DNA of 64,000 nucleotides from Undibacterium sp. (GTDB taxonomy: Bacteria; Pseudomonadota; Gammaproteobacteria; Burkholderiales; Burkholderiaceae_D), in the NCBI RefSeq assembly GCF_030651495.1, contig NZ_JAUSFI010000118.1, forward strand, positions 1 to 64,000. The letters run 5' to 3'. Under the pieces are notes generated by a model. It made no database searches, was not told the DNA's origin, and saw only the letters and a program-made list of their open reading frames with translations. The translations under genes were made by a program, and so were the position numbers. This document shows, one piece after another, positions 351 to 60,953 of the stretch (the first letter of the stretch is position 1; every line of letters begins with the position of its first letter).

Positions 351-3314
351 TTATGCAGGTAAAGAACAAAGCATTTCACTCGATATTTTGTAGTAACGAC
401 TTTTCGCACCGGCGAAGCGTTCGATGATGCTGTTCTTGCCGTCCTTGTCTTTCTCGAACACGCCTAGCTGTGCCATCTTGGCGGCCACCAATCGGGCATC
501 GTAGCCCTTGCAAACTTCATCCTTAAATACCTTGGGCAGTAGATAGTATTCAATGCTTGAGCCGTCCCGCTCGTCTGGGTGGATAGTATCGCCATACTCC
601 TTATGCCAGTCTGCATTGCTCTTTATCGCGTTACCGCTCTTGCTTATCATGCGTTTAAAGCCCGCCTGATTGATGGTCTTTGGTGCATGGTCATCCATCG
701 CACGGTGCGCCCATGCAAAGCGAGAATCACCATTGACCTGTATGAAGTTAGGCAATAGCTCTAACATGCGGTCGTGCTCAATATCGCCTGCTGTGCCACG
801 GCTAGAGAGCCAATCATTAAAGCAAGTGCTGGCCGCCTCGGTGGCATCACCATCTGCCCAGCCGGTGATGCCCGCCCCCGTTGCCAGTTCCCCGCCCGCT
901 GCCACCAATGAAAAGAAGTCAGCCACCCGTTTGACTTGGCCGTGTGCATTCGGTGGGCATAGCTTGGCCGTGGTCGCATTAATCGCTAGGCCAAGCACAT
1001 TGGATAAGTCTTTCACGTTATCCACCAGCCATTCAATGAAAGACAGACCAGCCGTGCCGTAATACTGTTGCGCCATATCGACTAAGTGCTTAGACATGGC
1101 CGCACCATCAGCAAACCCATGCACGGTATCAAACACGCCTAAGTCTTTACCGGCATCAGCGCTGATATGAGCAAGGCGTACATCTTGGCCGCCCTTGGTC
1201 ATCTTGCCCGCCTCAGCCATCTTTGCTTCTAGCGATATTTCGCCATCACTCAGAAAGATTAAGCGCCAGGTGGCAATCTTCTTGGCGGTGGCGTGCTGGG
1301 TGGCGCGGCCTTTGCCTTTCTCATTACTGAGCATATAGGCGATATTGCCCACCATCTTAGGGTCAACTTGGCCTAGTTCATCTAATACCAGTAAAGCGTC
1401 TGAGTGCTTTTGCGCGGTGGCCTCTAATGAATTATCTGTGACGTGCCAGCTTTGCGCATAGTCACTACCACCGAAGATAGACGCGGCCACCTTCATAGCG
1501 GTACTTTTGCCGGTGGAACTACTGCCCATTAGATGCAGGCCGAAGCTTTGCACCTTGGCATGGTGTAGCAACAAAGACGCAAACCCCGCCGATACAAAAA
1601 ACAGTAAGCGAGAATTGCCCTTGCAATGCGCTGAAACATTGCCCTGCCACTCGGCCAGCGTACCGCGCTGCTTGAATTGCGACACTACCCCGCCAGTGGT
1701 CTGAAACAAGACCTGTTCACTGCCTTGCCCTATGGTGCGATCTGGCAGCACGTACACATCATCATGCCAGCCTGTGCGCTCTACACATCGTACCCGCTCT
1801 GGCACGTCTCGGGTTTGTATATAGGTCGTCAAATAGTTTTTAGCCTTGAGTCCAGGTTCAATCATCAAGCCCATAGACAGCAAATCAGCACGGTATTGTG
1901 TGCCATCACCTGACAACATTTTTGCAGGCATAGACCAGCGTTTTTTATTCCCGTCTGGGTCTGAAAATTCCAATAAATAACCCCATTCGCCATTGGTAGA
2001 ATCACGCGTCTTAGCGATCACGTCCAAAGACGAGCAAATTTTAAGCGCGGGCAGTGGTTCGCCTTCGTGGAAATTATGAAAGAACACGCCTTCATCATTG
2101 TTAGTAAAAAACGGTTTTGATGCTGGTCCATCACCAGCGGGTTTTCGGCCATTTGCTTGGCGCGGCTTTACATGCGTTTTTTCTGGGGCGGCATTACCAA
2201 CCTTCACCGGCTCGGTAATCGCCGCCTGTGCGCTGATCTGGTTTACTGGCGCGGCATTGGCTATAGTCTCGCTTGCCGCAACTGCTGCGCTAGTAGCGGG
2301 TAATTGTGCTGGCACTGGTTGTATGGCAGCCATAACCTGCTTTTTTATTTCATCGTTGCCCATGGCTTGCGCCAGGTCGTTAAAGTCATTGCCGCCCGCT
2401 GGTAAATTCATCGGTTTGCACCATGCCGCCCTAATGGCTTTGGCCGCTTCGGTGGCTGCCACTATGCCGGGATTTTTGCCGGTCTTTTGCTCGGTCTGGC
2501 TGTCATCATCGGCACAAATCAGGATGTGCTTATCTGGATAACGCGCCCGCATGATGGCCGCTATATGCTTAATATTACTTTCGCTGAATGCGACCGCCAC
2601 AGCGTAGCCGGTGGCCTCAAACAAGGTCGAGCCGGTGGCGTAGCCCTCAGCAATCAAAAGCCAGTCTGAGGCGGCCAAATCACCCAGAGCATGAAAGCAA
2701 CCAGACACCCGCCCGCCGGTATAAAACCGCTTATCGCCATTGGCAAACACGCGCTGAATATTCCACAGCTTGCCGCTGTCATCGCGTACCGGCACCAGCA
2801 ACACAGCGCCAGCCTTATTATCGGCAAAGCGTACCCCGTGGCCGCTAATGCGTTTCTTTTCCAGATAGGCAGACTGGCCGCCTTCGTTCGCCTTATCCCA
2901 TGCAGTGACCGCAATACTGGCCGCCGCCGCTTGCTTGCGTTCTATCTCTGCCTGATCTGCTGCCAGCCTTTGCGCCCGCTCTTGCTTAATCCGCGCCGCT
3001 TCCTCTGCTGTTATCGGTGCAGCCGGTGCATGGTCTTTCAGCTTAAAGCCGCGCTGTGTGGCCTCAAATATGAGCGTACCTATGCTGATCTTGCCGCCGG
3101 TCTTAAAACTTTTCCAGCTTGATTTTACGGCGGCCACATCGTAACTTTCTGCGTTCTGGCTCCAGGTATCGAACACATCAAAGCCTGTATCACCCAGCTC
3201 TACCTTTAAGGCCATGCCCACCTTGAGCCATAGCGGGCGATCATTCGGCGGTATGAAAGTGAGCGCCGCTTGTATCGCTGCTATGCTGGGGCGGTCGTTA
3301 TGATTTTGTGGCAT
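351..3314 (-). CDS. Mobile-element primase-helicase (PriCT-2, TOPRIM, DUF927)
   Basis: Large replication protein of the kind carried by integrative elements and phage-plasmids, expected to prime and unwind element DNA. From the N-terminus: a PriCT-2-like region (about 1-90), a TOPRIM fold (about 215-320, with AEGYATG and an ICADDDS acidic motif) and a DUF927 helicase domain (about 410-690) with Walker A GSSSTGKST near residue 600 and a Walker B-like LLVLDELG. The start is placed at MPQNHN (ATG 3314) because AAGGGGAG lies just before it; an upstream in-frame start would add six residues. Length is 987 aa, typical for the family. It overlaps the preceding small gene by 17 bases, so the two are probably co-transcribed. 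Domain names come from motif recognition, not from a search. Confidence 0.85.
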   Translation of the reverse strand: MPQNHNDRPSIAAIQAALTFIPPNDRPLWLKVGMALKVELGDTGFDVFDTWSQNAESYDVAAVKSSWKSFKTGGKISIGTLIFEATQRGFKLKDHAPAAPITAEEAARIKQERAQRLAADQAEIERKQAAAASIAVTAWDKANEGGQSAYLEKKRISGHGVRFADNKAGAVLLVPVRDDSGKLWNIQRVFANGDKRFYTGGRVSGCFHALGDLAASDWLLIAEGYATGSTLFEATGYAVAVAFSESNIKHIAAIMRARYPDKHILICADDDSQTEQKTGKNPGIVAATEAAKAIRAAWCKPMNLPAGGNDFNDLAQAMGNDEIKKQVMAAIQPVPAQLPATSAAVAASETIANAAPVNQISAQAAITEPVKVGNAAPEKTHVKPRQANGRKPAGDGPASKPFFTNNDEGVFFHNFHEGEPLPALKICSSLDVIAKTRDSTNGEWGYLLEFSDPDGNKKRWSMPAKMLSGDGTQYRADLLSMGLMIEPGLKAKNYLTTYIQTRDVPERVRCVERTGWHDDVYVLPDRTIGQGSEQVLFQTTGGVVSQFKQRGTLAEWQGNVSAHCKGNSRLLFFVSAGFASLLLHHAKVQSFGLHLMGSSSTGKSTAMKVAASIFGGSDYAQSWHVTDNSLEATAQKHSDALLVLDELGQVDPKMVGNIAYMLSNEKGKGRATQHATAKKIATWRLIFLSDGEISLEAKMAEAGKMTKGGQDVRLAHISADAGKDLGVFDTVHGFADGAAMSKHLVDMAQQYYGTAGLSFIEWLVDNVKDLSNVLGLAINATTAKLCPPNAHGQVKRVADFFSLVAAGGELATGAGITGWADGDATEAASTCFNDWLSSRGTAGDIEHDRMLELLPNFIQVNGDSRFAWAHRAMDDHAPKTINQAGFKRMISKSGNAIKSNADWHKEYGDTIHPDERDGSSIEYYLLPKVFKDEVCKGYDARLVAAKMAQLGVFEKDKDGKNSIIERFAGAKSRYYKISSEMLCSLPA

Positions 3315-3516
3315 GCGCTCCCCTTGCCTCATTTGGCTTGTGTAGCTTATCGAATGTTTTAGCGCTAATTTCGCTTAAAACAATAGGCAATAGATTGCTT
3401 ACCTCTTGTGCCAGGTCTGCTAGTAACCACGTCACATTGTTTCTTGTTTCTTCGGAATGCATCTCAGACGATGCTAACAGGACGCTACTTAACGCCGCCA
3501 ATTGAGCCGCCCGCAT
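3298..3516 (-). CDS. Small unknown protein upstream of the primase
   Basis: A 72-codon frame starting MRAAQLAALSSVLLASSEMH and ending 17 bases inside the primase gene, an arrangement common in compact phage-like operons. Predicted helical, with no signal peptide and no recognised domain. The frame can be extended upstream to a TTG at 3564, but that would overlap the start of the divergent integrase. No clear ribosome binding site is visible for the ATG chosen. Existence of the protein is plausible rather than proven. Confidence 0.45.
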   Translation of the reverse strand: MRAAQLAALSSVLLASSEMHSEETRNNVTWLLADLAQEVSNLLPIVLSEISAKTFDKLHKPNEARGAHATKS

Positions 3517-3538
3517 GGCGGCATAATCGTATGAGCGA

Positions 3539-4267
3539 TTGCCAGAATTAAAGGCTGGCGGCAATCAATTGCGTGAATATGCTCAGTGCTACTGGGTGTA
3601 TGAGGGAAAGTTTATTGATGAGTTGCCGGAAGTTGTTGCAGCGTATCGCAAGGAGTCCGGCCTTAGTCCGGCAACCATTAGAATAAGAATGGCGTATGTT
3701 CGGGCCGCATGTCGATATGCGTATAAATATCACAAGTTTTGCGATCATGACCCTGCTGAACGTGTGAATATGCCAACAGTAAATAATGAGCGCCAGGTGT
3801 ATGCAAGCAGAAAAGAGGTGTTACAGATTGCAAGGGCGATAAGATGGCGATCAATTCGGGCCGTATTCATGATTGCCTTCTACAGTGGCATGAGGCTTGC
3901 GGAGATTTTACGCACAGACATAAAAGACGGGATGTTTCACTTGAAAGACACAAAGAATGGCGACCCGCGAACAATCCCCATCCATTACCGACTGAGTTGG
4001 TGCGTAAAGCATATTCCTATTCAGCCAGCAAGATCGACCATACAACAGCATGTAAAAGCGGCGATGCTAAGCTGCGGCCATGAAGATTTACATTTTCACG
4101 ACATGCGACATAGTGCGGCAAGCGAGATGATTAATGCCGATGTCGATCTATATACAGTGGGCGGCGTACTTGGGCATAAAAGTGCACAGTCAACAAAGAG
4201 ATACAGTCATCTTGCAACGTCAACCCTTGCCCTTGCCGTGGCGAAGATTGGCAGGAAAAAAATCTAA
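3539..4267 (+). CDS. Tyrosine recombinase / integrase of the tRNA-Ser element
   Basis: Site-specific recombinase of the phage integrase family, about 242 aa. Catalytic set visible: Arg in SGMRLAE, Lys in KDTKNGDPR, HxxR in HDMRHSAAS, His in LGHKSA and the nucleophilic Tyr in KRYSHLA. An N-terminal core-binding region (about 25-85) precedes the catalytic domain. The first available start is a TTG at 3539, with a stop five codons upstream and no strong ribosome binding site, so the start is uncertain. The gene ends about 80 bases before the 3' end of a tRNA-Ser gene and reads toward it, the classic position of an integrase whose attachment site is the tRNA 3' end. The short, divergent layout with the primase suggests they are parts of one element. 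Confidence 0.85.
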   Translation: MPELKAGGNQLREYAQCYWVYEGKFIDELPEVVAAYRKESGLSPATIRIRMAYVRAACRYAYKYHKFCDHDPAERVNMPTVNNERQVYASRKEVLQIARAIRWRSIRAVFMIAFYSGMRLAEILRTDIKDGMFHLKDTKNGDPRTIPIHYRLSWCVKHIPIQPARSTIQQHVKAAMLSCGHEDLHFHDMRHSAASEMINADVDLYTVGGVLGHKSAQSTKRYSHLATSTLALAVAKIGRKKI

Positions 4268-46314: not shown

Positions 46315-46391
46315 CGCGGGGTGGAGCAGTCTGGCAGCTCGTCGGGCTCATAACCCGAAGGTCATAGGTTCAAATCCTGTCCCCGCAACCA
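46315..46391 (+). tRNA. Initiator tRNA-fMet(CAT), site of island insertion
   Basis: Complete initiator tRNA. The acceptor starts CGCGGGG with an unpaired C1 against A72 (CCCCGCA), three G-C pairs flank the anticodon loop (TCGGG CTCATAA CCCGA), anticodon CAT, T-loop TTCAAAT, encoded CCA. These are all marks of the initiator rather than elongator tRNA. Its 3' half from 46344 is duplicated at 60905, showing that an island inserted here and restored the gene. Confidence 0.97.
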
Positions 46392-46525: not shown

Positions 46526-47513
46526 ATGTCGACTATCACTAAACGCGGTCCGTATCAATTTCAAGCCATCGTTCGTTGCAAAGGCTATCCAACCCAAACA
46601 CGCACCCTCGAAACCATGAAGGCTGCCAAAGACTGGGCCAGAGACGTAGAAGTAAAAATGCAGCGCGGTGAATTCACCGACCGCTCCAAAGCTGAAAGCA
46701 CGAGACGTGCTAGAGCGCTATCGTCAAGAAGTGACACCGGACAAGCGCGGGCACATCAAAGAAAACTACCGTCTATTGCAGTTACTGCGACACTCTTTAG
46801 CCTTGCGTCCACTCGCTAGTCTGCAAAGTGTCGACTTCTCCAGCTATCGTGACCAACGACTCAAGGAAGTCGCTCCAAAAACAGTACAACTAGAACTCTC
46901 GATGTTCTCAGCAGTACTGAATACGGCGCGGCGTGACTGGTCGATTCCGGTCGACAATAGCGTCACCGACATTCGTAAACCGAAATTGCTCGGAGGCCGT
47001 TCGCGTCGTCTGGTTGGTGATGAGGAAAAGTGTCTGTTCGATGCAGCCAGCGAACGCGAATCGTCCGACCTAAATTTGTTGATTCTGCTTGCCATCGAAA
47101 CCGGAATGCGCTGCGGCGAGATGGTGACCTTGACCTGGGACCAAATCAACCTTGCTCACCATTTTATCCATTTGGATATGACAAAAAATGGGACTGCCCG
47201 CGATGTTCCCTTGTCGGTCGCTGCTGAAGCCGCTTTGCGCCCCTTGCAACGACAATCGCATCATCGGCTGACCAATTTTCGCGACACAGACAGCGTCAGC
47301 GCTGCGTTTCGCAAAACATGCCTGCGTGCCAATATCAAAAATTTGCGTTTTCACGACCTGCGCCACGAAGCCGCTTCCAGACGGGCAAAAATCTTACCAG
47401 CGGCGACGCTGGCAAAAATCTTCGGCTGGAAAACCCTGCAAATGGCTATGCGCTACTACAACCCTACAGCTGCTGAGTTAGTGGCTGCCATCCGCCAGCC
47501 AATTGCGGCATAA
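46526..47513 (+). pseudogene. Tyrosine integrase of the island, frameshifted
   Basis: The first part (ATG 46526, GGAG upstream, MSTITKRGPYQFQAIVRC) is an Arm-DNA-binding-type N-terminus. After GEFTDRSKAEST near 46690 the frame must shift by one base to continue as RDVLERYRQEVTPDKRG through the core-binding and catalytic domains to 47513. Catalytic residues survive: R in TGMRCGEM, K in MTKNGTARD, HxxR in HDLRHEAAS, Trp-variant FGWKTL, and Tyr in MRYYNP. As written the protein would be split, so the island is probably not self-mobile; a sequencing error is the alternative. Confidence 0.8.
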
Positions 47514-48230: not shown

Positions 48231-51200
48231 TTAAGGTGACGTAAGCGGATGCAAACGTTGGCGCAGCCACAACAACAAGTCGTCCACATAGGTAAATACA
48301 ACCGGAATCACCAGCAAGCTGAGTACGGTGGAGGTGACTAGGCCGCCAATCACCACCACGGCCATCGGTCCGCGAAAGCTTGCATCCGCTCCCCAACCCA
48401 GGGCGATGGGAAGCATACCTGCCACCATGGCGATGGTGGTCATCAGGATGGGCTGGGCTCGTTTGTGGCAGGCATCGACCAGCGCTTCATAGCGCCCCAC
48501 GCCCTGCTGGTGGTAGGCGACTACCGCGTACTCGACCAGCAGGATCGAGTTCTTGGTGACAATGCCCATCAGCATCAAGAGGCCGATCACCGACGACATC
48601 GAGAAGCCGCTGCCAGTAATCAACAGCGCCAATAGCGCGCCACCAACCGACAAGGGCAGGGCCGCCAGGATGGTGGCCGGCTGCATGAAGTCGTGGAACA
48701 GCAGTACCAGCACCGCGTAGATGCACAGAATGCCGATCAGCATCGCGCCGCCAAAGCTGGCGAACAGTTCGGCCATGCGTTGCGCATCACCGGTGGCAAT
48801 CTGCTGCACGCCTGCGGGCAGGTTTTTGATGCTGGGTAGAGCCTGTACCAATTTGTTTGCGTCGCCAGTGCTCAGGCTGCCGAGTTCGATGCTCAGGGTC
48901 ACGTTGCGCATCCGGTCCAGCCGTGCCACCTGCGAGGGGCCAGCGCCCAGCGACAGATCGGCCACGGCAGTCAGCGGTACCGCGCCGGTACGCCCGGCCA
49001 CGCGCAACTGTCCCAGCGCATCCAGGTCGGAGCGGGTGCTGTCGTCAAAACGCACGCGGATCGGGATCTGGCGTTGCGGCAGGTTGAACTTGGCCAGGCT
49101 GGTGGCATAGTCGCCATAGGTGGCCACGCGCACCACGCTGGCCAGGGTGTCGGTGGTGACACCCAGTTCGGCCATACGCACCGGGTCGGGTCGCACATGG
49201 ATTTCGGGCTGTTGCAGGCTGGAGCTGTCGGTGATGTTGCCAATGCCTTTCAGCGTGCGCAGGTCCTTGATCAGCGCGGCGGTGGCCTGGTTCAGCGCCA
49301 GGGCGTCGTCGCTGGCCAGGGTGATATCGAGCGACTGGCCGTTGCCCATGCCCATCACGCCAACGCGGGTGCCGGGCAGCCCACCCAGTCTGTGGCGGAT
49401 GGCGGCTTCCACCTCGGACTGCGAGCGCACCCGCGTGCCGCGCGGTGTCAGGCTGACGGTCAGCGACGCCTCGTTCACTGTGCTGCTGCTGGCATCGCTG
49501 CTGGCGTCACCGATCACGGTGAACACCTGGGTGACTTCGGACATCTGGGCGATCAGCGCCTGGGCCTGGGCGGCGGTGGCGCGGGTTTGCACCAGTGTGC
49601 TGCCAGGCTGCAACTTGAGCGAAATCGTGGTCTGCGCGGTGTCGGACGCGCTGATGAATGAGGTGGACAGCAGCGGCACCAGGCTCAATGATCCGATGAA
49701 GAACAGGCCTGCCAGCAGCATCGTGCCACGCCGGTGCGTCTGGCACCAGTGCATCATGGCCAGGTAATAGCGCATCACCGGGCCGTCTTGCGTCACGTGC
49801 ACCGGGCTGGGCTTGAGGAGGTAGGCCGCCATCATCGGTGTCAGCAACCGAGCCACCAGCAGCGAGGCCAGTACCGCCACCGATGAGGTGATGCCGAACT
49901 GCCGGAAGAACTTGCCCGGTATGCCGCTCATAAAAGCCGTGGGCAAGAACACCGCCACCAGGGTGAAGGTGGTGGCCACCACCGCCAGGCCGATTTCATT
50001 GGCGGCTTCGAGTGCGGCCTGCATCGGTGTCTTGCCCATGCGCAAATGGCGCACGATGTTCTCGACCTCGACAATGGCATCGTCTACCAGTACGCCCACC
50101 ACCAGCGACAGGCTCAGCAGGGTGATTAGGTTCAGCGAATAACCGAGCAGGTACATCACGATGAAGGTCGGGATGATGGACAGCGGCAGCGCCACCGCGG
50201 AGACAAAAGTCGCACGCCAGTCGCGCAGGAACAGCCAGACCACCACCACCGCCAGGATCGCGCCCTCGTACAGCAGGTGCATCGAGCCGTCGTAATTATC
50301 CTGCGTGGGGCGCACGGTTTCGATCACCTCGGTGATCTGCACCTGCGGGTGGCGGGCACTGAAGGTCTTGACCGCAGCACGCACTGCAGCCGCCACCGAC
50401 ACCTCACTGCTACCGATCTGTCGTGTGACCTGGAAGCCGACTACCGGCTTGCCGTTTAGCGCTGCATACGCAAAGCGCTCTTCAGCGGTGTCGCTGACCG
50501 TAGCAATCTGATCCAGCCGTACACTGGTCTTGGCGGCGGCGGCAGTGGTAACGGGGATAGCCAGGCCGGCCAGTTGCTCTGGCTGATCGAGTCGGCCCAG
50601 GGTTCGTACCGACTGGTTGCTGCCGCCCAGCGTGCCGCGGCCGCCCGAGGCATCGGTCTGCACCGCCTTGATCTGGCTGGATACGCTGTTGGCTGTCACA
50701 CCCAGACCGGACATCAGTGCAGGGTCCAGCGTTACATGCATCTCGCGCTTGACACCACCGATGCGGTTGATCGCGCCCACACCCTTGGCCGATAACAAGG
50801 CCTTGCTGATGTTGTTGTCGACAAACCAGGATAGATCGGACTCGCTGAGGTGCGGTGCCGCCACTGTATAGGTCAGCAGCGCGGCCGAGCCGTGCGTGAC
50901 CTTGGAGACCACCGGCGCGGCCATCTCGGTAGGCAGGTCGGCACGCGTGCCGTCGACAGCGTTGCGCACTTCGTTCAGAGCGACTTCACCGTCCTTGTCG
51001 ATGTCGAAGCTGACGCTGACGCTGGCCGTGCCGTCGGTGATGGTGGTGGTAATGTGGTCTATTCCGGCAATTGAGGCCAACTTGTCTTCGATCTTGCGGG
51101 CCACCTCGGTTTCCAGCTGCGCCGGTGCGGCGCCTTCCAGCGTTGCCGAGATCACGATGGTCGGCACGTCAAGATCGGGGAAGTTCTGGATACCTAACTT

Positions 51201-51290
51201 GTGCAGGCCGAATAGCCCGGCCCCGGTGAGAATGATGAACAGCAGAATCGCCGGAACCGGGTTGCGTATCGACCAACTTGAAACATTCAT
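48231..51290 (-). CDS. RND efflux permease (HAE1/AcrB type)
   Basis: 1019 aa inner-membrane proton/drug antiporter subunit of a tripartite pump. Starts MNVSSWSIRNPVPAILLF; twelve membrane helices with two large periplasmic loops. The TM4 proton-relay motif is GVLVDDAIVEVENI, and the HAE1 motif NFPDLDVPTIVISA follows TM1. The start codon overlaps the stop of the MFP gene as ATGA, so translation is coupled. Substrate unknown. It is in the GC-rich cargo of the island. The last gene of the operon; the 180 bases to its left hold only the transposon scar. Confidence 0.93.
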   Translation of the reverse strand: MNVSSWSIRNPVPAILLFIILTGAGLFGLHKLGIQNFPDLDVPTIVISATLEGAAPAQLETEVARKIEDKLASIAGIDHITTTITDGTASVSVSFDIDKDGEVALNEVRNAVDGTRADLPTEMAAPVVSKVTHGSAALLTYTVAAPHLSESDLSWFVDNNISKALLSAKGVGAINRIGGVKREMHVTLDPALMSGLGVTANSVSSQIKAVQTDASGGRGTLGGSNQSVRTLGRLDQPEQLAGLAIPVTTAAAAKTSVRLDQIATVSDTAEERFAYAALNGKPVVGFQVTRQIGSSEVSVAAAVRAAVKTFSARHPQVQITEVIETVRPTQDNYDGSMHLLYEGAILAVVVVWLFLRDWRATFVSAVALPLSIIPTFIVMYLLGYSLNLITLLSLSLVVGVLVDDAIVEVENIVRHLRMGKTPMQAALEAANEIGLAVVATTFTLVAVFLPTAFMSGIPGKFFRQFGITSSVAVLASLLVARLLTPMMAAYLLKPSPVHVTQDGPVMRYYLAMMHWCQTHRRGTMLLAGLFFIGSLSLVPLLSTSFISASDTAQTTISLKLQPGSTLVQTRATAAQAQALIAQMSEVTQVFTVIGDASSDASSSTVNEASLTVSLTPRGTRVRSQSEVEAAIRHRLGGLPGTRVGVMGMGNGQSLDITLASDDALALNQATAALIKDLRTLKGIGNITDSSSLQQPEIHVRPDPVRMAELGVTTDTLASVVRVATYGDYATSLAKFNLPQRQIPIRVRFDDSTRSDLDALGQLRVAGRTGAVPLTAVADLSLGAGPSQVARLDRMRNVTLSIELGSLSTGDANKLVQALPSIKNLPAGVQQIATGDAQRMAELFASFGGAMLIGILCIYAVLVLLFHDFMQPATILAALPLSVGGALLALLITGSGFSMSSVIGLLMLMGIVTKNSILLVEYAVVAYHQQGVGRYEALVDACHKRAQPILMTTIAMVAGMLPIALGWGADASFRGPMAVVVIGGLVTSTVLSLLVIPVVFTYVDDLLLWLRQRLHPLTSP

Positions 51291-52432
51291 GGCGCTGCCT
51301 TGGTTGACTTGGTGGACTTGGTATTGATGCTGCTGGTGGCGCTGATCCACTGAACCGGGTCGCCATCATTCAGGAAGGCACCACCACTGCGCACCAGTTG
51401 GGCCTGCTCGGCGATACCACTGGTGATCTCCACCAAGTCGCCCACGCGTCGGCCGGTTTGCACTTGGCGTTGTGCCACTTTCTGGGTGTCGCCATCCTTT
51501 TCAAACACATAGCTGTTGCCATCACGCAGCACCACAGCACTGTTGGGTACAGTGAGCGCAGGGGTCTGGCCGGTGTTGATCTCGCCGCGTACGTACATGC
51601 CCGCGCTGGCAGAGCTGCCTATGGGCAGGTCGACATAGGCGAGGCCGTTGCGAGTGTTGCTGTCCAGCGTCGGGCTGACCAGGCGCAGGCGGCCTGCTAC
51701 CTGACTACCGTCGGGCAGGGTAATGCGTGCGGTCTGACCTGGTTTCAACGCGGTAATTTGTTTGCCGGTGACTTCGGCCCGCCATTCCACGCGGCGTTGG
51801 CGCACCAGCTGGAACAACTCGGTGCCCGAGGCCACGACATTGCCCAGCGTGGCGCTGCGACTGGAGATGATGCCGTCGTCCACCGCTAGGATGCGGGTAT
51901 GCGCGAGCTTGATGCGTTGGCTGTCCAGCGTGGCCAAGGTGGCGTCTAGGCTAGCCTGGGCCGTTTGCTCGGCAATCAGGTAGGAGGTGACCTGTTGGTC
52001 CGACAAAGCACCACTGTCTTTCACCATCCGGCTACGGTCGGCCTCGGCCTTGGCCTGGGCCAGCTTGGCGCGGGCTTGAGCAACGGTCGCCTGCTGGGAG
52101 CGCAGCTCGGCCTGCACTGTGTCGTCGTTCAAGCGTGCCAGCAACTGGCCGCGTTTGACTACGCTGCCTACGTCCACCAGCACCTCGGAGATACGCAGGC
52201 CGGCTTCCTCGCTGGCGATGCTGGATGTTTGCCAGGTAAACAGCCCGCCGGATAGTTGCAGGCTGCGGCCCCAAGTGACCTGCTGTGGCGTGACGGCGCT
52301 GACGGTCAGCCCCGAATTGGCGCCGGTGGTCACAGTGGTGACAGGCGTGGCGCCGGATTTGAGCACCCATACGCCACCGACGACGACTAACAGCACGGTG
52401 GCCGCGATTAGGCTGATTTTTGCTAATTTCAC
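51287..52432 (-). CDS. RND periplasmic adaptor (membrane fusion protein)
   Basis: 381 aa HlyD/AcrA-type adaptor linking the permease to the outer-membrane channel. GTG start at 52432 (VKLAKISLIAATVLLVV) is preferred because GGAGA precedes it and it overlaps the stop of the channel gene as GTGA. Membrane anchor at about 5-25, lipoyl half-motifs (SEVLVDVGSVVKRGQLLARL and ILAVDDGIISSRSA) on either side of a coiled-coil hairpin (about 110-175), then beta-barrel and membrane-proximal domains. Ends with a Ser/Thr/Lys tail. Confidence 0.92.
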   Translation of the reverse strand: MKLAKISLIAATVLLVVVGGVWVLKSGATPVTTVTTGANSGLTVSAVTPQQVTWGRSLQLSGGLFTWQTSSIASEEAGLRISEVLVDVGSVVKRGQLLARLNDDTVQAELRSQQATVAQARAKLAQAKAEADRSRMVKDSGALSDQQVTSYLIAEQTAQASLDATLATLDSQRIKLAHTRILAVDDGIISSRSATLGNVVASGTELFQLVRQRRVEWRAEVTGKQITALKPGQTARITLPDGSQVAGRLRLVSPTLDSNTRNGLAYVDLPIGSSASAGMYVRGEINTGQTPALTVPNSAVVLRDGNSYVFEKDGDTQKVAQRQVQTGRRVGDLVEITSGIAEQAQLVRSGGAFLNDGDPVQWISATSSINTKSTKSTKAAP

Positions 52433-53835
52433 TTCGTGTCTCCAAGGGATACTGACCAGCCGCCGCCAACGGCTTTGTACAAGGCAATGCCGTACAGCAA
52501 CTGGTCGCGCTGCACGGAAATCAAGGTTTGCTCGGCAGAAATTGCGTTGCGCCGAGCGACTTCTAGGTTCAGCAGGCTGTCGCCACCAGCACGCCAATTG
52601 GCGTCCACTGATGTGGCGTAGCTGCGGTAGCCCTCTGCACTGCGGCGTACTTCTGCGGTGCGGCGCTCGGCGCTGTCTTGCTGCAGCAGGTTTTTTTCGA
52701 CCTCTTGCACAGCGGTTCGCACAGCCTGCCGGTAGGTGGCCAGCTCCAAGTCGTAGGTAGCCTGGGCAGAATCCACGGCGGCGCGTTTGGCTCCGCCATT
52801 AAGCAGCGGCAGGGACAGGCTGGGGCCAAAAGACCAAGGCGTGGTGTCCACCCCATCCGTGCGGGTACGCGACAGTGAACCCGTCAGCGACAGGCGTGGA
52901 TAGCGGTCAGCCTCAGCCACTCCAATCTTGGCACTGGCGGAGGCCAGGGCACGTTCAGCCGATATCAGATCAGGCCGCTGACTGAGCAGATCCACTGGCA
53001 AGGTACGCACAGTCAGGCTATCCGATGGGGGCAATTTGGGCGGCTGCGTATCCAGCAGCTGGCGTAGCGCAGGTTCTGCCAACCCGGTTAGGGCCACCAA
53101 GGCTTTGATGGTGATGTCACACTCGGTCTTTTGAGAAATTGCGATGGCTGAGGCGCTGGCGGCACTGGCATCAGCCAGATCGGCATCGGCCCGCGACGTT
53201 ATGCCGGCCTGCAACGACCGCTGGGTGATGCGGGCCGTAGCCTGGATGGAAAGCGCATTTGACTGCACGGTCTGCAGCGTTAGCTGGCAGGCGCGGTAGG
53301 TTACATAGTCGGTGGCCACTTCGGCGGCCAGAGAAACGCGCGCATCGTGCCAGTCGGCTTGGCGGGCCTGCCGCAGCGCGTCGGAGGACTCGGCAGAGCG
53401 ACGCACGCTGCCGAATAGATCGATTTCCCAACTGGTATCCAGCGCGCCGGTAATGGTGGTTTGGGCAGTGCCTAGGGTGTTGCCACGGCTAGCTGAGGCC
53501 GAGCCGGTCAGAGTCGGCAGGCCGGAAGCGCGCGCTGAGGTGACGCTGGCGCGGGCAGCGGCGATATTGGCAGCGGCTTTTTGCAATGATGGGTTGTTGA
53601 CTTCAGCCAACTGCAACAGTCCGTTTAAGCTGGTGTCTTGCAAGCGCTTCCACCAGGTCAGCAGCTCGCCGGTGTCACCATCATGTGGCTGGACCGCTTG
53701 CCATTGGCTGGATGTGAGCAGTTGCTCTGTGGCTGGGACCTGGTACGAAGGGCCAACCGCCGTGCAAGCCGACAACAGGGCGCAATGCAGCAGGATCAGG
53801 GTGTTGTGTCTATCAAATCGGGGGAGTGACAACAT
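52429..53835 (-). CDS. NodT-type outer membrane efflux channel (OMF)
   Basis: 468 aa TolC-like lipoprotein. Signal with lipobox LLSAC (C24) followed by TAVGPSYQVPA, the NodT-family start. Two repeats of coiled-coil hairpins, with SWEIDLFGSVRRSAE and PSLSLPLLNGGAKRAAVDSA as repeat markers. First gene of the OMF-MFP-RND unit; coupled to the adaptor by a 4-base GTGA overlap. About 210 bases separate it from the kinase gene, room for its own promoter, which I cannot mark. Confidence 0.93.
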   Translation of the reverse strand: MLSLPRFDRHNTLILLHCALLSACTAVGPSYQVPATEQLLTSSQWQAVQPHDGDTGELLTWWKRLQDTSLNGLLQLAEVNNPSLQKAAANIAAARASVTSARASGLPTLTGSASASRGNTLGTAQTTITGALDTSWEIDLFGSVRRSAESSDALRQARQADWHDARVSLAAEVATDYVTYRACQLTLQTVQSNALSIQATARITQRSLQAGITSRADADLADASAASASAIAISQKTECDITIKALVALTGLAEPALRQLLDTQPPKLPPSDSLTVRTLPVDLLSQRPDLISAERALASASAKIGVAEADRYPRLSLTGSLSRTRTDGVDTTPWSFGPSLSLPLLNGGAKRAAVDSAQATYDLELATYRQAVRTAVQEVEKNLLQQDSAERRTAEVRRSAEGYRSYATSVDANWRAGGDSLLNLEVARRNAISAEQTLISVQRDQLLYGIALYKAVGGGWSVSLGDTK

Positions 53836-54046
53836 CGTGTTTTGATCCGGTTAATGGTGGGCGTCAAAATGTAAAGCCTGATTGTGAGCTATCAATGTCA
53901 ACCCTTTAACTAGGGTTTGTCGCGAAGTAGGGATCTGTCGCAGTAACTCAAGCAATTTGCGCCCTATGCATCGAAAAGAACCCAAGCGCATGTATGCGAT
54001 TGGTCGCGATGCGGCAAGAGCTCATGAATCTGACATATGCGTTGCT

Positions 54047-55135
54047 TTAGGCTGGCAGCGTAATGATCACTTCAAGGCCACCGCCGCTGCGGTTGCTGGC
54101 ACTGATCTGCCCTTGATGCGCCAGCACGACACTGCGGGTGATGGCCAGGCCAAGACCACACCCATGATCACCTTTGTCGAAATTGGAGTCGCTACGAAAG
54201 AAGGGCTCAAAAATTCGATCTACATCTTTTTGGGGCAGTCCAGGTCCCTCGTCTGAAATACTGATCAGCACACTGAGGTTGGTCGCATTGACAGTGATGT
54301 GCAGTCCTATGATGCCTCCAATAGGGGAAAAGCGAATCGCATTGCGTAGCACGTTATCCAGCGCCCGGTAGAGTAACTCGACATCGCCTTTGACCTGCAT
54401 CTGCTCAGGAATGTGGATTTGCAGTCGGCAGGATTTTGCTTGCATTTCGAGTTCAGCATCACTACAAATAGACTGCGCAAGTTCGATCAAATCCACCAAT
54501 TCAGCGGGTGCCTGGTTTGTCGTCGAATCCAGCCGAGCCAAAGTCAGCAGTTCACCCACGAGCTTGTCCATTCGACTAGTTTCACGCTCAATACGCTGCA
54601 CCAACTCCACGGAACGCTGTGGCTGCTGCACCATCAAGTCGCTACATGCCTGCAGGCGTGCAAGAGGGGAGCGCAGCTCATGAGAAACGTCATGCAATAG
54701 TCGGCGCTGCGCCTCAACTTGCGCCTGCAGTTTTGCGGCGCTTCGGTCAAAGGCCTGACCCAGATTAGTGAGCTCGTCCCGGCGCGATCCCATCGCCTTG
54801 CTCACGCGTGTATTCAGCTTACCGTCGGCGAGCGCTTCAAATGCAATGTTCAAACTGCGGATGGGTCGCGAAAAATACCAACTCAACCATGCCGCAAAAG
54901 CCACGCTGACTAACAAACCGGCGCCCAACGGCAGCGGCGGAGGCAGGCCGCCTTTCGGCCAGATCGGCGTGCTCGCCTGCGCGCAATTCGGTGCTGAGCA
55001 ATGATCCATGGACTGCTTGAACGGCGTGTCTAATACGGCGGATGGCCAAGCCAGCAACATCAAGCCCACCGTCAAAAATATCGAGATCTGTGCGACCCAG
55101 AACACTATAAAAAATTTCCAAAACAGACGGCCCAT
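54047..55135 (-). CDS. Sensor histidine kinase of the efflux operon
   Basis: 362 aa, CpxA-like architecture: TM1 about 8-30, a short periplasmic loop of ~35 residues containing two cysteines (DHCSAPNCAQ), TM2 about 68-88, HAMP, H152 in HDVSHELRSPLARL, N-box NVLRNAIRFSP, G1 DEGPGLP, G2 GCGLGLAI. The tiny sensor loop suggests sensing within the membrane or through the cysteine pair. Starts 5 bases after the response regulator stop. Confidence 0.92.
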   Translation of the reverse strand: MGRLFWKFFIVFWVAQISIFLTVGLMLLAWPSAVLDTPFKQSMDHCSAPNCAQASTPIWPKGGLPPPLPLGAGLLVSVAFAAWLSWYFSRPIRSLNIAFEALADGKLNTRVSKAMGSRRDELTNLGQAFDRSAAKLQAQVEAQRRLLHDVSHELRSPLARLQACSDLMVQQPQRSVELVQRIERETSRMDKLVGELLTLARLDSTTNQAPAELVDLIELAQSICSDAELEMQAKSCRLQIHIPEQMQVKGDVELLYRALDNVLRNAIRFSPIGGIIGLHITVNATNLSVLISISDEGPGLPQKDVDRIFEPFFRSDSNFDKGDHGCGLGLAITRSVVLAHQGQISASNRSGGGLEVIITLPA

Positions 55136-55140
55136 GGCGC

Positions 55141-55833
55141 TTACTCCACGACTAGTTGGTAACCCATTCGGATCACAGTTTGGATAGGCGATGAGCCATC
55201 GGGCAACAATCCAAATTTCTGGCGAATGCCGCTCACATGTACGTCGATGCTTCGGTCAAAACGGCTCAAAGGGTGTCCCAGACCTTCTTCGCTGAGCTGC
55301 TGTTTGCTCACAGTCTCCCCTGCGTGGCGCGCCAGCACCTCAAGCAGGCTGAACTCAGTGCTGGTGAGCGCCATGTCCTTGCCAGCGAGTTGAGCACGTC
55401 GCTTCGCAGGCCATATGGTGAGCGCGCCCACGGTAATGGGTACACGGGTATCCTGCTTTTGGGACCGCGCATTTTGCGAGCGCTTAAGAATGGCACGCAG
55501 CCGCGCAACGAGTTCGCGCGGCGTGCAGGGCTTGGACACGTAGTCGTCCGCACCGAGCTCAAGCCCCATGATCCGGTCGGTGTCATCCCCTTTAGCGGTG
55601 AGCATCAGCACAGGTACAGGGCTTACGGCACGTATCTGCGTGAGCACTTGCATGCCATTAATGCCGGGCATCATCACGTCGAGCACCACGATATCCGGTG
55701 CATTATTCTGTACGGATTTCAGACCTGCATACCCGTCGGTTGCGGAGTTGACGGAAAACCCGTCAGCTTGCAGATAGTCGCGTAGCAGTTCCAATAATTC
55801 GCGATCATCATCAATCAAAAGAACTTGGGGCAT
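55141..55833 (-). CDS. OmpR-family response regulator of the efflux operon
   Basis: 230 aa: receiver domain (about 1-118; phospho-acceptor D52 in VVLDVMMPG, acidic pocket IDDD) and winged-helix DNA-binding domain (about 135-228, ending RFDRSIDVHVSGIRQKFG). Start at MPQVLLIDDDRELL; the ribosome binding site is weak. Resembles CpxR/RstA-type regulators. First gene of the RR-HK-OMF-MFP-RND series on one strand, so it very likely controls the pump. Confidence 0.92.
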   Translation of the reverse strand: MPQVLLIDDDRELLELLRDYLQADGFSVNSATDGYAGLKSVQNNAPDIVVLDVMMPGINGMQVLTQIRAVSPVPVLMLTAKGDDTDRIMGLELGADDYVSKPCTPRELVARLRAILKRSQNARSQKQDTRVPITVGALTIWPAKRRAQLAGKDMALTSTEFSLLEVLARHAGETVSKQQLSEEGLGHPLSRFDRSIDVHVSGIRQKFGLLPDGSSPIQTVIRMGYQLVVE

Positions 55834-57068
55834 GGCACAGAAGGCATCACAAAAGTGGAGATCCAACGATAGTAAGCCAGAAGCCACTTCTGCGACATAC
55901 CTTTTACTCGGATTTACACCACGCTCATCTCGTCCTACAGACTCAAACAGCACAATGAATTCATTTGAGATTTGGAGGAGTGTTCCATGCCTGCGTACGG
56001 AAATGCGACACATCTGACTGATTCAATCGCACGGAGCGATTCTGCACATTGCAGTGACTGGTAATGCAATTGACACCTTACCTCTCAATGCGCGCTATGC
56101 AAGGAACGCTTGAACATATACCCCTACCAGTTGCGTCAGGTATAGGAACGGCAAACCTTCACTTGCATTGGTCAAGCGCCAATAGAAGTGGCAAATGAGG
56201 AAGAGATGTTGGCGCGTGTGTTGGAGACGCCTGGCTCGATTGGCAACCTGGAGAAGGCACCCGCTCATGCAAAAGTCAAAGTTGTTCCAATTCGCTAGCA
56301 CCATCGCCCACAGATTGTTGCCTTCGACTCTAACAGTGGCACACCCCTCAGAACGCGGTCAACAGTTCAAGTTCCTTCATATTGAGCTAAAGCTTGCCGG
56401 GTCAGTATGATGATCAGCCTTCGGCATTTTCCCAAGGAATTTGGGAGTTGGATGGTGGCAAATTGCGCCTGGGCACAAGCCATGGAGCGCTGAATTTCAA
56501 GTTTCAACTCGAGGTCGGCGCACTGCCAAGATTATCAATTAGTCAAATCAGCACGCACATGGGCATGGCGGCTCTGTCGGCTGAATACAACTAGGAAGAC
56601 TGGTCCATATTGGGAAAAATTGCACGCTATCCCATGAAAATGGATGGCTTTTCGCCCGTTTCCGGTGTGAGAGACACCCTGAATTCGTCAGGTTACTAGC
56701 TTCAACTCAACCGTCGTATGGGAAGCGGTTGGCAAGCCTTTGTTCGCGATGATGCCTTTTACCGCATCGAAAACGACCTTGGTGGCAAGGTATTTGCTTT
56801 GCCTGTCGGCCTTCCAAGCTATCTGGCCTACTCAGGGATGTCAGCCGCGTCAGGACAACAATGTCACTATTGGTATCCGCTTCGGCATCCTGGAAAAAAC
56901 ATGGATATGACTTCGCGCAAGATTTAAACAGCAGAATTGACGAAGTCAGAGTCTGAGGCTTTTACACGGATTTACATCGCCGGGTCTCAACTTAAGGACT
57001 CCGCTTGTCGATATTAATACTAAGAATCTAAATGAGTGGGTTCTTATATCCAACCCAAGGAGTTCAGT
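55834..57068. other. Decayed region between the response regulator and EF-hand genes
   Basis: No intact gene. 55834-56090 should hold the regulator promoter. 56190-56930 contains broken coding sequence described separately. 56930-57068 leads to the EF-hand gene. Confidence 0.55.
56195..56930 (+). pseudogene. Remnants of a binding protein and an outer-membrane protein
   Basis: At about 56200-56297 a frame reads LETPGSIGNLEKAPAHAKVK, like the C-terminus of phosphate-type binding proteins, ending at a stop. Next, LLPSTLTVAHPSERGQQFKF and, one frame over, GIWELDGGKLRLGTSHG, ISTHMGMAALSAEYN, EDWSILGKIARYPMKMDG, LQLNRRMGSGWQAFVRDDAF form one outer-membrane-like protein. It is interrupted by two in-frame TAG codons (56592 and 56697, each where Trp would fit) and frameshifts near 56395 and 56830. 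Family names are tentative. Confidence 0.45.
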
Positions 57069-57596
57069 ATGTCAATGTCAATTAGTTCCGTTGGAAGAGG
57101 AAGCAGCAACGGAGTCGATGCATCCAAGATGGCCTCCATGATGGCCACCAAGATGATGAGCGACCTCGATCCCAATAACACCGGCAAAGTTTCTAAGGAT
57201 CAATTTGTTTCTGGCTTGACTGCCAAAGGCGTGTCCAGCGATGATGCCACAAAAATGTACGACTCTATTGACACAAAGAAAACCGGAAGCATTGGAAAAT
57301 CGGACATTGAAACCTCTATTAAAAATGGCAACCTGAAGCCTCCTTCAGGCGGCTCTCGTGCCGCGGGTGACCCTGGTGGATCAGGAAAATCCGGGGGGGG
57401 GCAAGGCGGTGTGGGTGGAGTCGGCGGCGCGAGTAGTTCTTCCACAACCTATGCCGCCGCCGACACCAACCAGGATGGTGCGGTTTCCGGTCAGGAGGAT
57501 GCCGTCTACGTCATGAAACACCCTTCAGCGTCCAGCGCTGAAAGCAACAAAACTGACCCATCCAAGTTGGGCAAGAACGTTGACCAGCTGGTCTGA
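57069..57596 (+). CDS. EF-hand calcium-binding protein
   Basis: 175 aa starting MSMSISSVGRGSSNGVDA after AAGGAG. Three EF-hand-like loops: a degenerate one at about 34-45 (DPNNTGKVSKDQ), a second at 68-79 (DTKKTGSIGKSD), and a canonical one at 132-143 (DTNQDGAVSGQE). A Gly/Ser-rich linker (about 92-125) separates the second and third. No signal peptide. The fold suggests calcium-dependent folding or signalling; no target is known. Oriented against the efflux operon. Confidence 0.78.
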   Translation: MSMSISSVGRGSSNGVDASKMASMMATKMMSDLDPNNTGKVSKDQFVSGLTAKGVSSDDATKMYDSIDTKKTGSIGKSDIETSIKNGNLKPPSGGSRAAGDPGGSGKSGGGQGGVGGVGGASSSSTTYAAADTNQDGAVSGQEDAVYVMKHPSASSAESNKTDPSKLGKNVDQLV

Positions 57597-58180: not shown

Positions 58181-59110
58181 TTAACCGTTATTTTGCTGCA
58201 ACCACTGCTCCAGCGTCTCCTCCGACCAGGCTAAAGAGCGCCCCGGATTGTCCGGTGGCGAAACTAGGAGTGCCGTATAAATGCTGTCGAACAGGACTTG
58301 CACCGACGCATTGTCGACATCTTTCCTCGAAGAAGCGGCTCTCAGTGCTGCCCAGATTAGACATTTGAGCTGATATCGTTGTTGGTTAATCCCATAAAAT
58401 CCCGGTCGTTTTTGCTGGTATGCCAACCATTTAATAATGGTTGCTGCTACCTGCGGTGTGAGTTTTTTGTAGCTACTCAAGAAGCGTCCAGTCAGTTCTA
58501 CTGCCATCAATTTCGCCTCGTCAAGCGACGTTTTGCTTATGACCCACGTAAGATGCCGGCTGCCGCTGCTCATGATTTCCTGACCGTCATCATCCAGTAA
58601 CACCTCGCCCTGACGGTTCTTTGCCACATGCTTGCGATGTTCTAGCTGCGTGAGTTTATAGATGCGAGCCGTCTCCCAGCGTCCATCCTGACTTAGTTTT
58701 ACTACTTCAAAATGGATGCGCTGATATGGTTTTCTTGCATCTTTGTAGCGAGGGAAAACCTCCTGTTCTCCTTTGCCTTGTGACCACAGCAAGTAAAAAT
58801 TGACCTTGCCAAACTCTTGAACTTGCCGCTGATCCAGCGGTTTCACGATGACCAGATGGCCGCATGATTTGCCCTGTTTGCGCGCATAGTCGCGTTGATG
58901 CCGCGTCATTGCTATTCCCAGTTTTGCCTGCATTTCATTCACGAATGCCGGCAATTTGTCGATGCTTATCCAGCCACTTTGATAGAAATAGTGTTTGCTT
59001 TTGACGTAATCAAGTATCAGACGCATCGCTTGTGTTTGACTGCGAGGTAGCCGGATTTTGGCCAGTATTGAGGTGTTCTTATTATCAAAGGAAGGCATGA
59101 TGATGTTCAT
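58181..59110 (-). CDS. Unknown island protein, possible replication or maintenance factor
   Basis: 309 aa from ATG 59110 (MNIIMPSFDNKNTS); a GTG at 59137 or an ATG at 59098 are alternatives, and none has a good ribosome binding site. Basic, no signal, no membrane segment. Features: RLPRSQTQAMRLILDYVKSK, KLPAFVNEMQAKLGIAMTRH, KPYQRIHFEVVKLSQDGRW, and a C-terminal helical part SGSRHLTWVISKTSLDEAKL onward. I recognise no catalytic motif. A pair of 15 bp direct repeats lies just upstream, and the candidate structured RNA starts about 250 bases further on, divergently. Confidence 0.7.
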   Translation of the reverse strand: MNIIMPSFDNKNTSILAKIRLPRSQTQAMRLILDYVKSKHYFYQSGWISIDKLPAFVNEMQAKLGIAMTRHQRDYARKQGKSCGHLVIVKPLDQRQVQEFGKVNFYLLWSQGKGEQEVFPRYKDARKPYQRIHFEVVKLSQDGRWETARIYKLTQLEHRKHVAKNRQGEVLLDDDGQEIMSSGSRHLTWVISKTSLDEAKLMAVELTGRFLSSYKKLTPQVAATIIKWLAYQQKRPGFYGINQQRYQLKCLIWAALRAASSRKDVDNASVQVLFDSIYTALLVSPPDNPGRSLAWSEETLEQWLQQNNG

Positions 59111-59153
59111 CGAAAGAGTAATACCCCGTATAGCCACTAGCCTTATCTTCGTC

Positions 59154-59192
59154 AGAAGTTGTTTTTAGAACTGTTTTAGAAGTTGTTTTTAG
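59154..59192. repeat. Iteron-like direct repeats
   Basis: Two exact copies of AGAAGTTGTTTTTAG (59154-59168 and 59178-59192), 24 bases apart, with a related TTTTAGAA between. They lie 45-80 bases upstream of the unknown 309 aa protein. Spacing near two helical turns fits a protein-binding array or origin iterons; function unproven. Confidence 0.6.
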
Positions 59193-59364
59193 CAGTGATG
59201 ACGATTGATTTACGCGCCGGTGAAATCATCGGAAAGCCACGTAGCGCCTAGGTATCCGGAATACTTTCCGGACACCTCTAATGAATGTCCCAAAAAATTT
59301 GAAGAATTTTTAAGCTTGTTAAGGCTGATACCTACACAGATAAGGACTCCAATTTAAATAGGTC

Positions 59365-60396
59365 CAGACGATGCAGGTCGTCGGGTGCGCCAACACTCTC
59401 ACTTCTAACTGTTGTGGGATGGTCGCGCCAACGACCCCACATCAGTCTCACTTGTCAGGCACTGAATCCTATTCCAGGGTGCAGTTGCCGGTGACGCTCA
59501 GTGCACGTAATTGTGCTCGCTGAGCGACAATGGGCGGGGGAGCTGCAATTCTCCCGACCCACTCTATAAAAGAATCATGTTTTGAAATTCGTGCGACCAC
59601 CAGAAAAAACCGCCGCTATAAATCGAGAGATGAAATGCGGTTGGTTGGCAAACGAAAAATCGAGTACCCAGCCTCGACCTCCTGAACGATTCAGCGCAAG
59701 CTGGACGGGAGTGCTTGACACGAGTTATGTCGGTGTACGAAAGTCACCGCTGTCTGAAAAAGTGCCGCAAGGCGCCTGGAGAGCAGTCCAGGGAAGACAG
59801 TCCACCGCAGGAATGCGGGGAAGCAGAGAGCTTATGCGTGTAATAGTCGGAAACTAATCTGAGGCAACTCAGATAATTAGTGCACCGGCTTTCAAGAGAT
59901 GCATGAAGTGTGTGATTTAAAAGTTCAGGTAGACGTATAAACAAACAAGGATGAGGTCTTCGGGACATTCTCCCATCCGCGGGCGCCCATGGCGTCGGTA
60001 GCTGAAAACTACGTTTGTTTAATTTCGTGCCGCACACGTCATGTGTTGTTAATAGTCGTTTTGTCTAAGTGGGTGACCTGTCGTTGATGCTTGTTTTGTT
60101 CAGATTGGAAACCTGAACGTAAAAAACACGGATCGACTATGGTTAAGCGGTGATACCAGTCAATTAATTTGAGCTTTCCTATGCATGGGCATGTGTAGGT
60201 GAGTTAGCGATGTGACGCTACTGGGAAACACCACCGGATAATTTAGCCTTACAAGTGAGTTGATGTGCCTGGAAGGTTTGGCGACTAACCAGGAAGTGAA
60301 TGGCACGGGGCGCTTTGGCGAGTTCCCTGTGCAATCCAATTATCAGGTATTTTTTTAATATTGATTCAAGGGGCCGGTTTCGGCCGGCCCCGCCTT
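59365..60396 (+). ncRNA. Candidate giant structured noncoding RNA
   Basis: About 1 kb without a credible ORF but dense in hairpins: 59367-59382 (GACGA/TCGTC), 59413-59441, 59495-59526 (CGCTCAG/CTGAGCG), 59538-59555 (GGGAG/CTCCC, whose loop can pair with TGCAGTT at 59480, a possible pseudoknot), 59731-59749, a junction closed by CTGTCT/AGACAG (59750-59800), 59805-59818 (GGAA loop), 59845-59890 (AGTCGG/CCGGCT around a long GCAA-capped stem), a multi-branch region closed by AAACAAAC/GTTTGTTT (59939-60020) with a TTCG loop, 60098-60118, 60205-60220, 60268-60293, 60303-60332. It ends in a GC terminator at 60370-60399. Loop types and the T-run favour the plus strand. Size and architecture recall GOLLD/ROOL-class ornate RNAs, but I cannot assign a family. 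The 5' end is approximate. Confidence 0.62.
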
Positions 60397-60398
60397 TT
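60370..60398 (+). terminator. Terminator of the candidate RNA
   Basis: GGGGCCGG and CCGGCCCC around a 6-base loop, followed by GCCTTTT. On the other strand it has no T-run, so it serves the plus strand better. Confidence 0.65.
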
Positions 60399-60433
60399 AA
60401 CGAGGGAGTGACAAGTGAATTAGGCACTCAGCG

Positions 60434-60700
60434 TCACCGCCGCGCGGCAATTTGTTCGGCCTTCGTGGGACGGCCTCGACGTCGAGGTGCTGGTTGTGCT
60501 GATGATGCGGCTGAGGCTGATAACGTTTCCGGTTGTTTCTGACTCAGCCAATGATTAACGTCGACTGGCCGAAAGCGGAGTAAACGACCGAGTTTGACAA
60601 CCGGAGGTAAATCACCTCCCGTAGAATGACGGTTATAAATAGTCTGTTCGGCAATACCGAGTGCTGCTGCCAGTGTCTTAGGGGAAAGAAGTGCTTCCAT
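60434..60700 (-). CDS. AlpA-family DNA-binding regulator/excisionase
   Basis: 88 aa. MEALLSPKTLAAALGIAEQT, IYNRHSTGG, KLGRLLRFRPVDVNHWL is the MerR-like helix-turn-helix of AlpA proteins, which control integrase expression or excision in tRNA-borne islands. After it comes an AT-hook-like tail PRRRGRPTKAEQ, an unusual extension that may hold DNA minor grooves. AGGA lies about 9 bases before the ATG. It is placed at the right end of the island, reading inward toward the structured RNA. The 200 bases to the right hold the 19 bp double site and a TGGTATAAT extended -10-like motif near 60828. Confidence 0.88.
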   Translation of the reverse strand: MEALLSPKTLAAALGIAEQTIYNRHSTGGDLPPVVKLGRLLRFRPVDVNHWLSQKQPETLSASAASSAQPAPRRRGRPTKAEQIAARR

Positions 60701-60904: not shown

Positions 60905-60953
60905 GGGCTCATAACCCGAAGGTCATAGGTTCAAATCCTGTCCCCGCAACCAA
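60905..60953 (+). repeat. attR: duplicated tRNA-fMet 3' half
   Basis: Second copy of the 49 bp direct repeat. It lacks the 5' half of the tRNA, so it is not a gene; it marks the right boundary of the island. Confidence 0.95.

Follow-up and report, generated by a model that had tools for sequence, protein, structure and literature searches.

A probable diverged CP group II ribozyme and its partner gene acpG at the end of a tRNA-fMet island

The stretch of about 1.15 kb that lies between a homologue of acpG and an AlpA-like gene in the genome of an Undibacterium species holds no credible open reading frame, and the question raised by this locus is what is encoded there. The first-pass annotation of the window (the whole stretch of DNA that was analysed, 64,000 nucleotides of contig NZ_JAUSFI010000118.1) proposed an undescribed giant structured RNA inside a tRNA-fMet island. 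The evidence presented below indicates that the element is very probably a diverged circularly permuted (CP) group II ribozyme which, together with its partner gene acpG, occupies the attachment-site end of the island.

Conserved structure at the right end of the island

The island proposed in the annotation is borne out by the sequence, with the tRNA gene at its left end and a copy of the tRNA 3' end at its right end (Table 1). Three congeners have alpA and the RNA beside the tRNA repeat in the identical order, which makes four genomes if the window's own is counted, and the acpG homologue is intact in three of these four and broken in one (G005). In the latter genome, about 1.4 kb of inserted DNA splits acpG (L026, 5518-7797), and the acpG pieces contain stops. 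As judged by eye, the cargo of the island in the window (48231-56013) resembles an RND pump, membrane-fusion and outer-membrane proteins and a two-component system; a further island gene, at 57036-57596, is for an EF-hand protein.

In DNA searches, the RNA block was found in 4 of the 43 genomes of the genus (own included), at about 84-88% identity over about 1.2 kb. A DNA search of 399 genomes drawn from the order found the window's own copy alone, and no match to the window was found in plasmids and phages. The aligned block begins at a near-palindrome (59246) and extends beyond the GC-rich hairpin that ends at 60391. The consensus structure derived from the four sequences with RNAalifold has 389 scored pairs, of which 98.6% are standard, a proportion that is biased upward because the pairs were scored on the very alignment that had yielded the structure. 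Seventeen of the pairs show a two-sided compensatory change, versus 0-2 when one side was slid by 1-3 columns, so that covariation among the homologues is above the controls. The internal gap runs of the four-genome alignment, counted per row, are in 20 of 24 cases not multiples of three, and these gaps break any protein frame within the genus. The block at 59246-60396 on the plus strand is thus confirmed to be non-coding and structured, as the annotation had claimed for 59340-60400, where it saw many helices and no credible ORF.

Several elements that had been drawn by eye in a single sequence are recovered in the four-sequence consensus. These are the stems closed by CTGTCT/AGACAG and by AAACAAAC/GTTTGTTT, the GCAA hairpin, the GGAA hairpin (with covarying pairs 59807/59816, mispaired in one relative, and 59809/59814) and the hairpin that had been assigned a TTCG loop, which in the consensus has a loop of three bases. 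The two sides of a proposed pseudoknot, 59480 and 59541, are invariant across the four sequences. The tandem motif GCGCCAAC is present at 59387 and 59425, and hairpins with similar GCCAA loops are seen by eye 5' of D5 in other members of the RNA family described below. The element taken for a terminator at the 3' end is a real hairpin, but it is followed by no T run and a terminator scan found none.

Table 1. Features of the island and of the RNA, in positions of the window
Feature	Position	Strand	Basis
tRNA-fMet, left end of island	46315..46391	+	called tRNA-Met, anticodon cat; initiator type as read in the first-pass annotation
Integrase-like gene, left side of island	46668..47513	+	named by eye
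acpG homologue	58181..59137	-	318 codons, start codon uncertain; homologues adjoin CP group II RNAs
Probable CP group II RNA, whole conserved block	59246..60396	+	four-congener alignment, covariation; ends approximate
5' hairpins with GCGCCAAC loops, likely P1/P2 region	59379..59440	+	by eye
D5-D6 module	59486..59565	+	covariance model R1
D5 (triad CGC, 5 bp, UC bulge)	59495..59526	+	register from nhmmer alignment and by eye
D6 (bulged A 59557, presumed branch point)	59532..59560	+	register from nhmmer and by eye; family structure
AC, presumed 3' splice boundary	59561..59562	+	sequence; published consensus AY (PMC8637638, available text)
28-nt linker, predicted RNA circle	59563..59590	+	inferred from both boundaries
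GTGCG, presumed 5' splice boundary	59591..59595	+	sequence; published consensus GUGYG (PMC8637638, available text)
D1-D4 region, structured, diverged	59596..60369	+	genus covariation
GC-rich 3' hairpin	60370..60391	+	consensus structure; no T run after it
alpA-like regulator gene, right side of island	60434..60700	-	Pfam HTH_17, PHROG excisionase/regulator
48-nt repeat of tRNA 3' end, right end of island	60905..60952	+	sequence comparison

The class of the RNA

GOLLD, ROOL, OLE and HEARO are Rfam families, and the annotation had named them among the models with which the region should be searched. The Rfam scan gave no match to any of them in the region, and the RNA is therefore none of the four, although it is like GOLLD, ROOL and OLE in that these are large and ornate and are in some cases found on mobile elements. 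At the gathering level of Rfam 15 the window contains two tRNAs only; a search of 59130-60450 up to E 5 gave a single match, taken as chance, and neither gathering nor relaxed thresholds helped to place the RNA. In another locus, L089, a group II-D5 match (E 0.35) was likewise taken as chance because it lies outside the RNA core. In three acpG loci (L031, L034 and L038), matches to C4 antisense RNA (RF01695) lie about 1.5 kb or less from the acpG homologues, as on P4-like elements.

The DNA upstream of acpG homologues is conserved and gene-poor. When a profile made from 15 upstream regions was run on 50 regions that adjoin acpG homologues, the 15 being among them, it found the RNA in 42. The duplicates L064, L072 and L073, the near duplicate L092, the truncated L033 and L066, and L074, which has no match, were removed before this count, which also omits L088 and nine E. 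coli acpG plasmids. Thirty-eight of the 50 regions entered a family alignment, made by sequence only, in which 184 consensus pairs are 87.1% standard versus 36-44% when slid. Under a phylogeny-preserving null, in which substitutions are reshuffled along the tree by a script of ours modelled on R-scape, 24 of 351,541 column pairs reach E <0.05, and 23 of these 24 are inside the structure. The same alignment contains 903 G-U cells versus 155 A-C cells, whereas the ratio expected from composition alone is 1.14; with the reservation that the structure was fitted with G-U allowed, this bears out the plus-strand sense proposed in the annotation. Frames on the opposite strand could suggest a protein-coding gene there, as they have 160 codons in two congeners and 158 in the third, and individual family members have stop-free stretches of as many as 298 codons. 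However, the frame in the window has 97 codons only, gaps of 1-8 bases disrupt the frames in the genus and the RNA covaries in both genus and family, which makes an antisense gene hardly credible.

According to the available text of Roth et al. 2021 (PMC8637638), the CP group II RNA, formerly called "T-large", is a class in which D5-D6 precede D1-D4, with splice boundaries AY and GUGYG that occur in reverse order less than 100 nt apart. Its members have P1/P2 stem-loops and a P2-D2 pseudoknot, are about 1 kb long and ORF-free inside, and reside on mobile elements. AcpG is the ORF associated with them, as a common but not obligatory companion; it is divergent and without known relative, and the biological role of the class is given as unknown.

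The element in the window shares with this class, as described in the same text, the D5-D6 at the 5' side, the bulged A, the reversed boundaries, the size of about 1 kb without an internal ORF, the nearby acpG and the location on a mobile element. R1, a covariance model of D5-D6 for which 26 of the 38 aligned sequences were used and the window's genus was left out, matches the window at 60.6 bits (E 5e-14; unrounded, 5.3e-14) and has no second match there at E up to 1. On the whole genome of the window it gives one match (E 1.1e-12) and none besides at E up to 0.001 with strict filters, and the three congeners score 52.6 bits. The module falls within the first third of the conserved RNA and not at its 3' end, and D6 is followed by AC and then by GTGCG 28 nt further on, i.e., well within 100 nt. 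A59557 is flanked in D6 by CG and CCC pairs (register partly by eye). The class is thus a published one (PMC8637638, available text), of which the window carries a diverged member, and the word "undescribed" in the annotation does not hold. A giant RNA of a class not yet described, with which the empty Rfam result would agree, is very improbable in view of the D5-D6 covariance match, the boundaries, the acpG partner and the published description (PMC8637638, available text).

The searches differ in how far they reach into the family. The 15-sequence profile found no RNA upstream of acpG in the window and in L024, L025, L026, L031, L034, L085 and L087. R1 finds it in the group formed by the window, L024, L025 and L026, and weakly in L034 (E 6e-4); it finds no D5-D6 in L031, L033, L074, L085 and L087. 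In an nhmmer search with the 38-sequence core the window was matched at E 4.7e-9, in the 5' module only. A model of the D1 segment (R2), made from 24 of the 38 aligned sequences, gave weak matches at the collinear position in the congeners (E 0.014, 0.014 and 0.15), and the window was not among its matches at E up to 5. With R2 weak or silent and the remainder of the RNA diverged, what places the element in the class is its D5-D6, its boundaries, its acpG partner and the synteny. The plasmid pPNAP05, whose expression is reported in PMC8637638 (available text), is among the acpG matches of the present search, and R1 found no RNA or D5-D6 in 3,636 bases of it. A more typical CP group II D5-D6 was noticed at 83.5 bits in another genome of the window's genus (L135, G002:C6:176924-177009), one that the DNA search had missed; the Pandoraea plasmid pPO70-4 (L083) has weaker D5-D6 matches at 1053-1128 and 2512-2577 with an IS256 transposase gene between them.

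The element differs from the published RNAs in its diverged D1-D4, in having CGC in place of AGC at the position of the D5 triad, which is seen by eye in one other family member (L032), and in its setting, an integrated tRNA-fMet island beside alpA. It is rather unlikely, but a real possibility, that it is a decayed CP group II RNA that inherited its structure and is no longer reactive in this lineage. The triad and the strong divergence of D1-D4 would fit such decay. CGC triads are, however, known in some group II introns, and the 17 compensatory pairs within the genus, together with the intact bulged A and boundaries, argue for selection on the structure. With a canonical group II intron the element has in common D5, D6 and the splice-boundary motifs, and it differs in the permuted domain order and in having no intron-encoded protein inside.

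If the element is the active ribozyme that we favour, its domains would run in the order D5-D6-D1-D2-D3-D4. By analogy with the published class, the RNA would be transcribed and folded, the bulged A59557 would attack and the RNA would back-splice, the products being a released circle of 28 nt and a branched RNA that is left. AcpG might assist the RNA, perhaps as a maturase-like protein; this step is the more conjectural one.

The AcpG protein

The AcpG of the window belongs with the TTHC007 family in being a homologue of the genes that stand, mostly divergently, beside CP group II RNAs. It is distinguished by its length of 318 codons and an insertion, and its identity to 13 of the 15 members with which it was aligned is 20-25%. 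Relatives at 25-34% identity are encoded in 14 further genomes among 399 of the order; besides the window's own genome, 8 of 369 genomes of the class have relatives, and a pattern scan of 85 thousand species genomes, which finds close relatives of one subfamily, returned 15 named loci. There are 25 plasmid records with relatives, and none was found in viral contigs and phage records.

The window AcpG has no credible family in Pfam, NCBIfam, PHROGs and PADLOC, and a comparison of 16 AcpG members with these databases other than PHROGs, at E up to 0.1, gave few weak matches and no relaxase. The result with PADLOC (best E 0.0099, not credible) bears on the idea that the branched RNA acts in trans against foreign RNA or DNA. 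Such a role in defence or interference is among the proposals made in PMC8637638, as far as its available text goes, and mobile elements are the carriers; with no defence match for AcpG we consider it unlikely.

The AlphaFold2 model of the Aquitalea AcpG is good (pLDDT 89.4, pTM 0.84; two of five models are that good), and that of the window protein is too poor for a fold search (pLDDT 60.7). The best PDB match of the Aquitalea model in Foldseek is 8t2s_D (probability 0.97, E 0.036, rmsd 9.0) and the second has probability 0.85 and E 0.094, both being chains of group II intron ribonucleoproteins; the next ranks are mostly viral RNA polymerases, with one group II-like reverse transcriptase at rank 7. 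No match to AcpG reaches E 0.001 in the PDB and viral models. Alignment with 14 reverse transcriptases by hhalign gave no support, none of the 14 being over the group II family cut-off. The resemblance to a group II maturase is thus weak, and a maturase-like nature of AcpG is a lead that the predicted fold offers. In two alignments no Asp, Glu or His is among the invariant residues, and for this reason AcpG is not expected to be a nuclease.

Plasmid distribution and a possible role in DNA transfer

All 25 acpG plasmids, 10 of which are close E. coli relatives, were typed by MOB-suite as non-mobilizable. So were 34 of the 35 plasmids that resemble the E. coli RNA stretch in DNA sequence, 14 of which are Acinetobacter plasmids that match by a piece of 68-76 nt only. 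For comparison, 489 plasmids have a relative of VirB4 of that E. coli plasmid; 285 of them are conjugative, 113 mobilizable and 91 neither, and the acpG plasmids of E. coli are expected among the 91. Both Paraburkholderia pBN5 and Gluconacetobacter pGDIPal5I have acpG and the RNA next to a coupling-protein gene, and these plasmids have T4SS genes and, in a gene table that is incomplete, no annotated relaxase; the 31-kb acpG plasmid of E. coli also has T4SS genes. Ten proteins from the latter plasmid and pBN5 gave no relaxase match in Pfam, and the 621-codon gene that follows acpG gave no Pfam match.

The E. coli RNA stretch is present in 22 records from 21 of 5426 genomes, throughout on plasmids, 15 at at least 99% over the query and seven at 95-99%. 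Five of these seven, among the matches listed, are about 3 kb long, with a cover of 55-57%, and three 3-kb records that were examined encode RepL, carry the RNA and give no match to AcpG. Of the seven E. coli genomes in which the match is the shorter one, six are without the larger plasmid; strain FHI_NMBU_11 has an RNA-only plasmid and an acpG plasmid together. In N. hansenii C110 the acpG homologue is on one plasmid (12,258 bases, with no D5-D6 match) and the RNA, without AcpG, is on another. Altogether, the circular records examined, which were chosen because the searches surfaced them, have the RNA in 14 of 14 cases and an AcpG match in 10 of 14.

The frequent occurrence of the RNA on small plasmids could also mean that it is a plasmid-type origin or primer RNA that serves the replication of the excised island. 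This is, in our opinion, highly improbable. The plasmids with the RNA have Rep genes of their own. According to the available text of PMC10033558, replication of pMtBL is carried by OriR (1918-2759), outside of which the RNA lies (3073-3876), and vectors derived from pMtBL replicate without the RNA; pTT8, as far as the accessible part of PMC8637638 reports, still replicates after a deletion.

The plasmid pattern suggests, on the strength of few independent cases, a cis element and a trans protein for DNA transfer. Our working guess, which we hold to be less likely than not, is that the RNA and AcpG serve to mobilise the DNA of their carrier, be it an island or a plasmid. In its specific form the idea is that the CP group II RNA and a maturase-like AcpG without conserved catalytic residues would constitute a ribozyme-based DNA mobilisation system that does the work of relaxase and oriT, whether the carrier is a conjugative plasmid, a small satellite plasmid or an integrated island, and that it perhaps nicks the transferred strand by reverse splicing; this we advance tentatively, as more likely wrong than right. 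A parallel may be drawn with the SGI1 mobilisation RNA, sgm-sRNA, which is described in the available text of PMC9299015 as an island RNA needed for transfer, the mobilisation proteins of that island not being classical relaxases. The sgm-sRNA is a small RNA and the likeness is one of description, a transfer role being only a proposal for the element in the window.

We found one paper on the class and no link between CP group II RNA and conjugation in the literature within reach, which left out most subscription literature and is thus weak evidence of novelty; the pattern of T4SS genes with no relaxase annotated, of plasmids with the RNA alone, and of RNA and acpG split between two plasmids of one strain is possibly new. 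It offers a concrete and testable role for the class, and it is this possible mobilisation function of the entire family that deserves the attention of specialists. If it were true, a ribozyme would take part in DNA transfer, and a number of plasmids that are classed today as non-mobilizable would in fact be mobile. The locus itself adds a diverged CP group II lineage on chromosomal islands, although it may already be listed in Data S1 of PMC8637638. A further diverged CP group II RNA was observed on an Acinetobacter plasmid (L134, NZ_CP044448.1), together with a weak AcpG match (E 3.7e-7) and a predicted floR gene, and the piece of 68-76 nt is common to thirteen other Acinetobacter plasmids.
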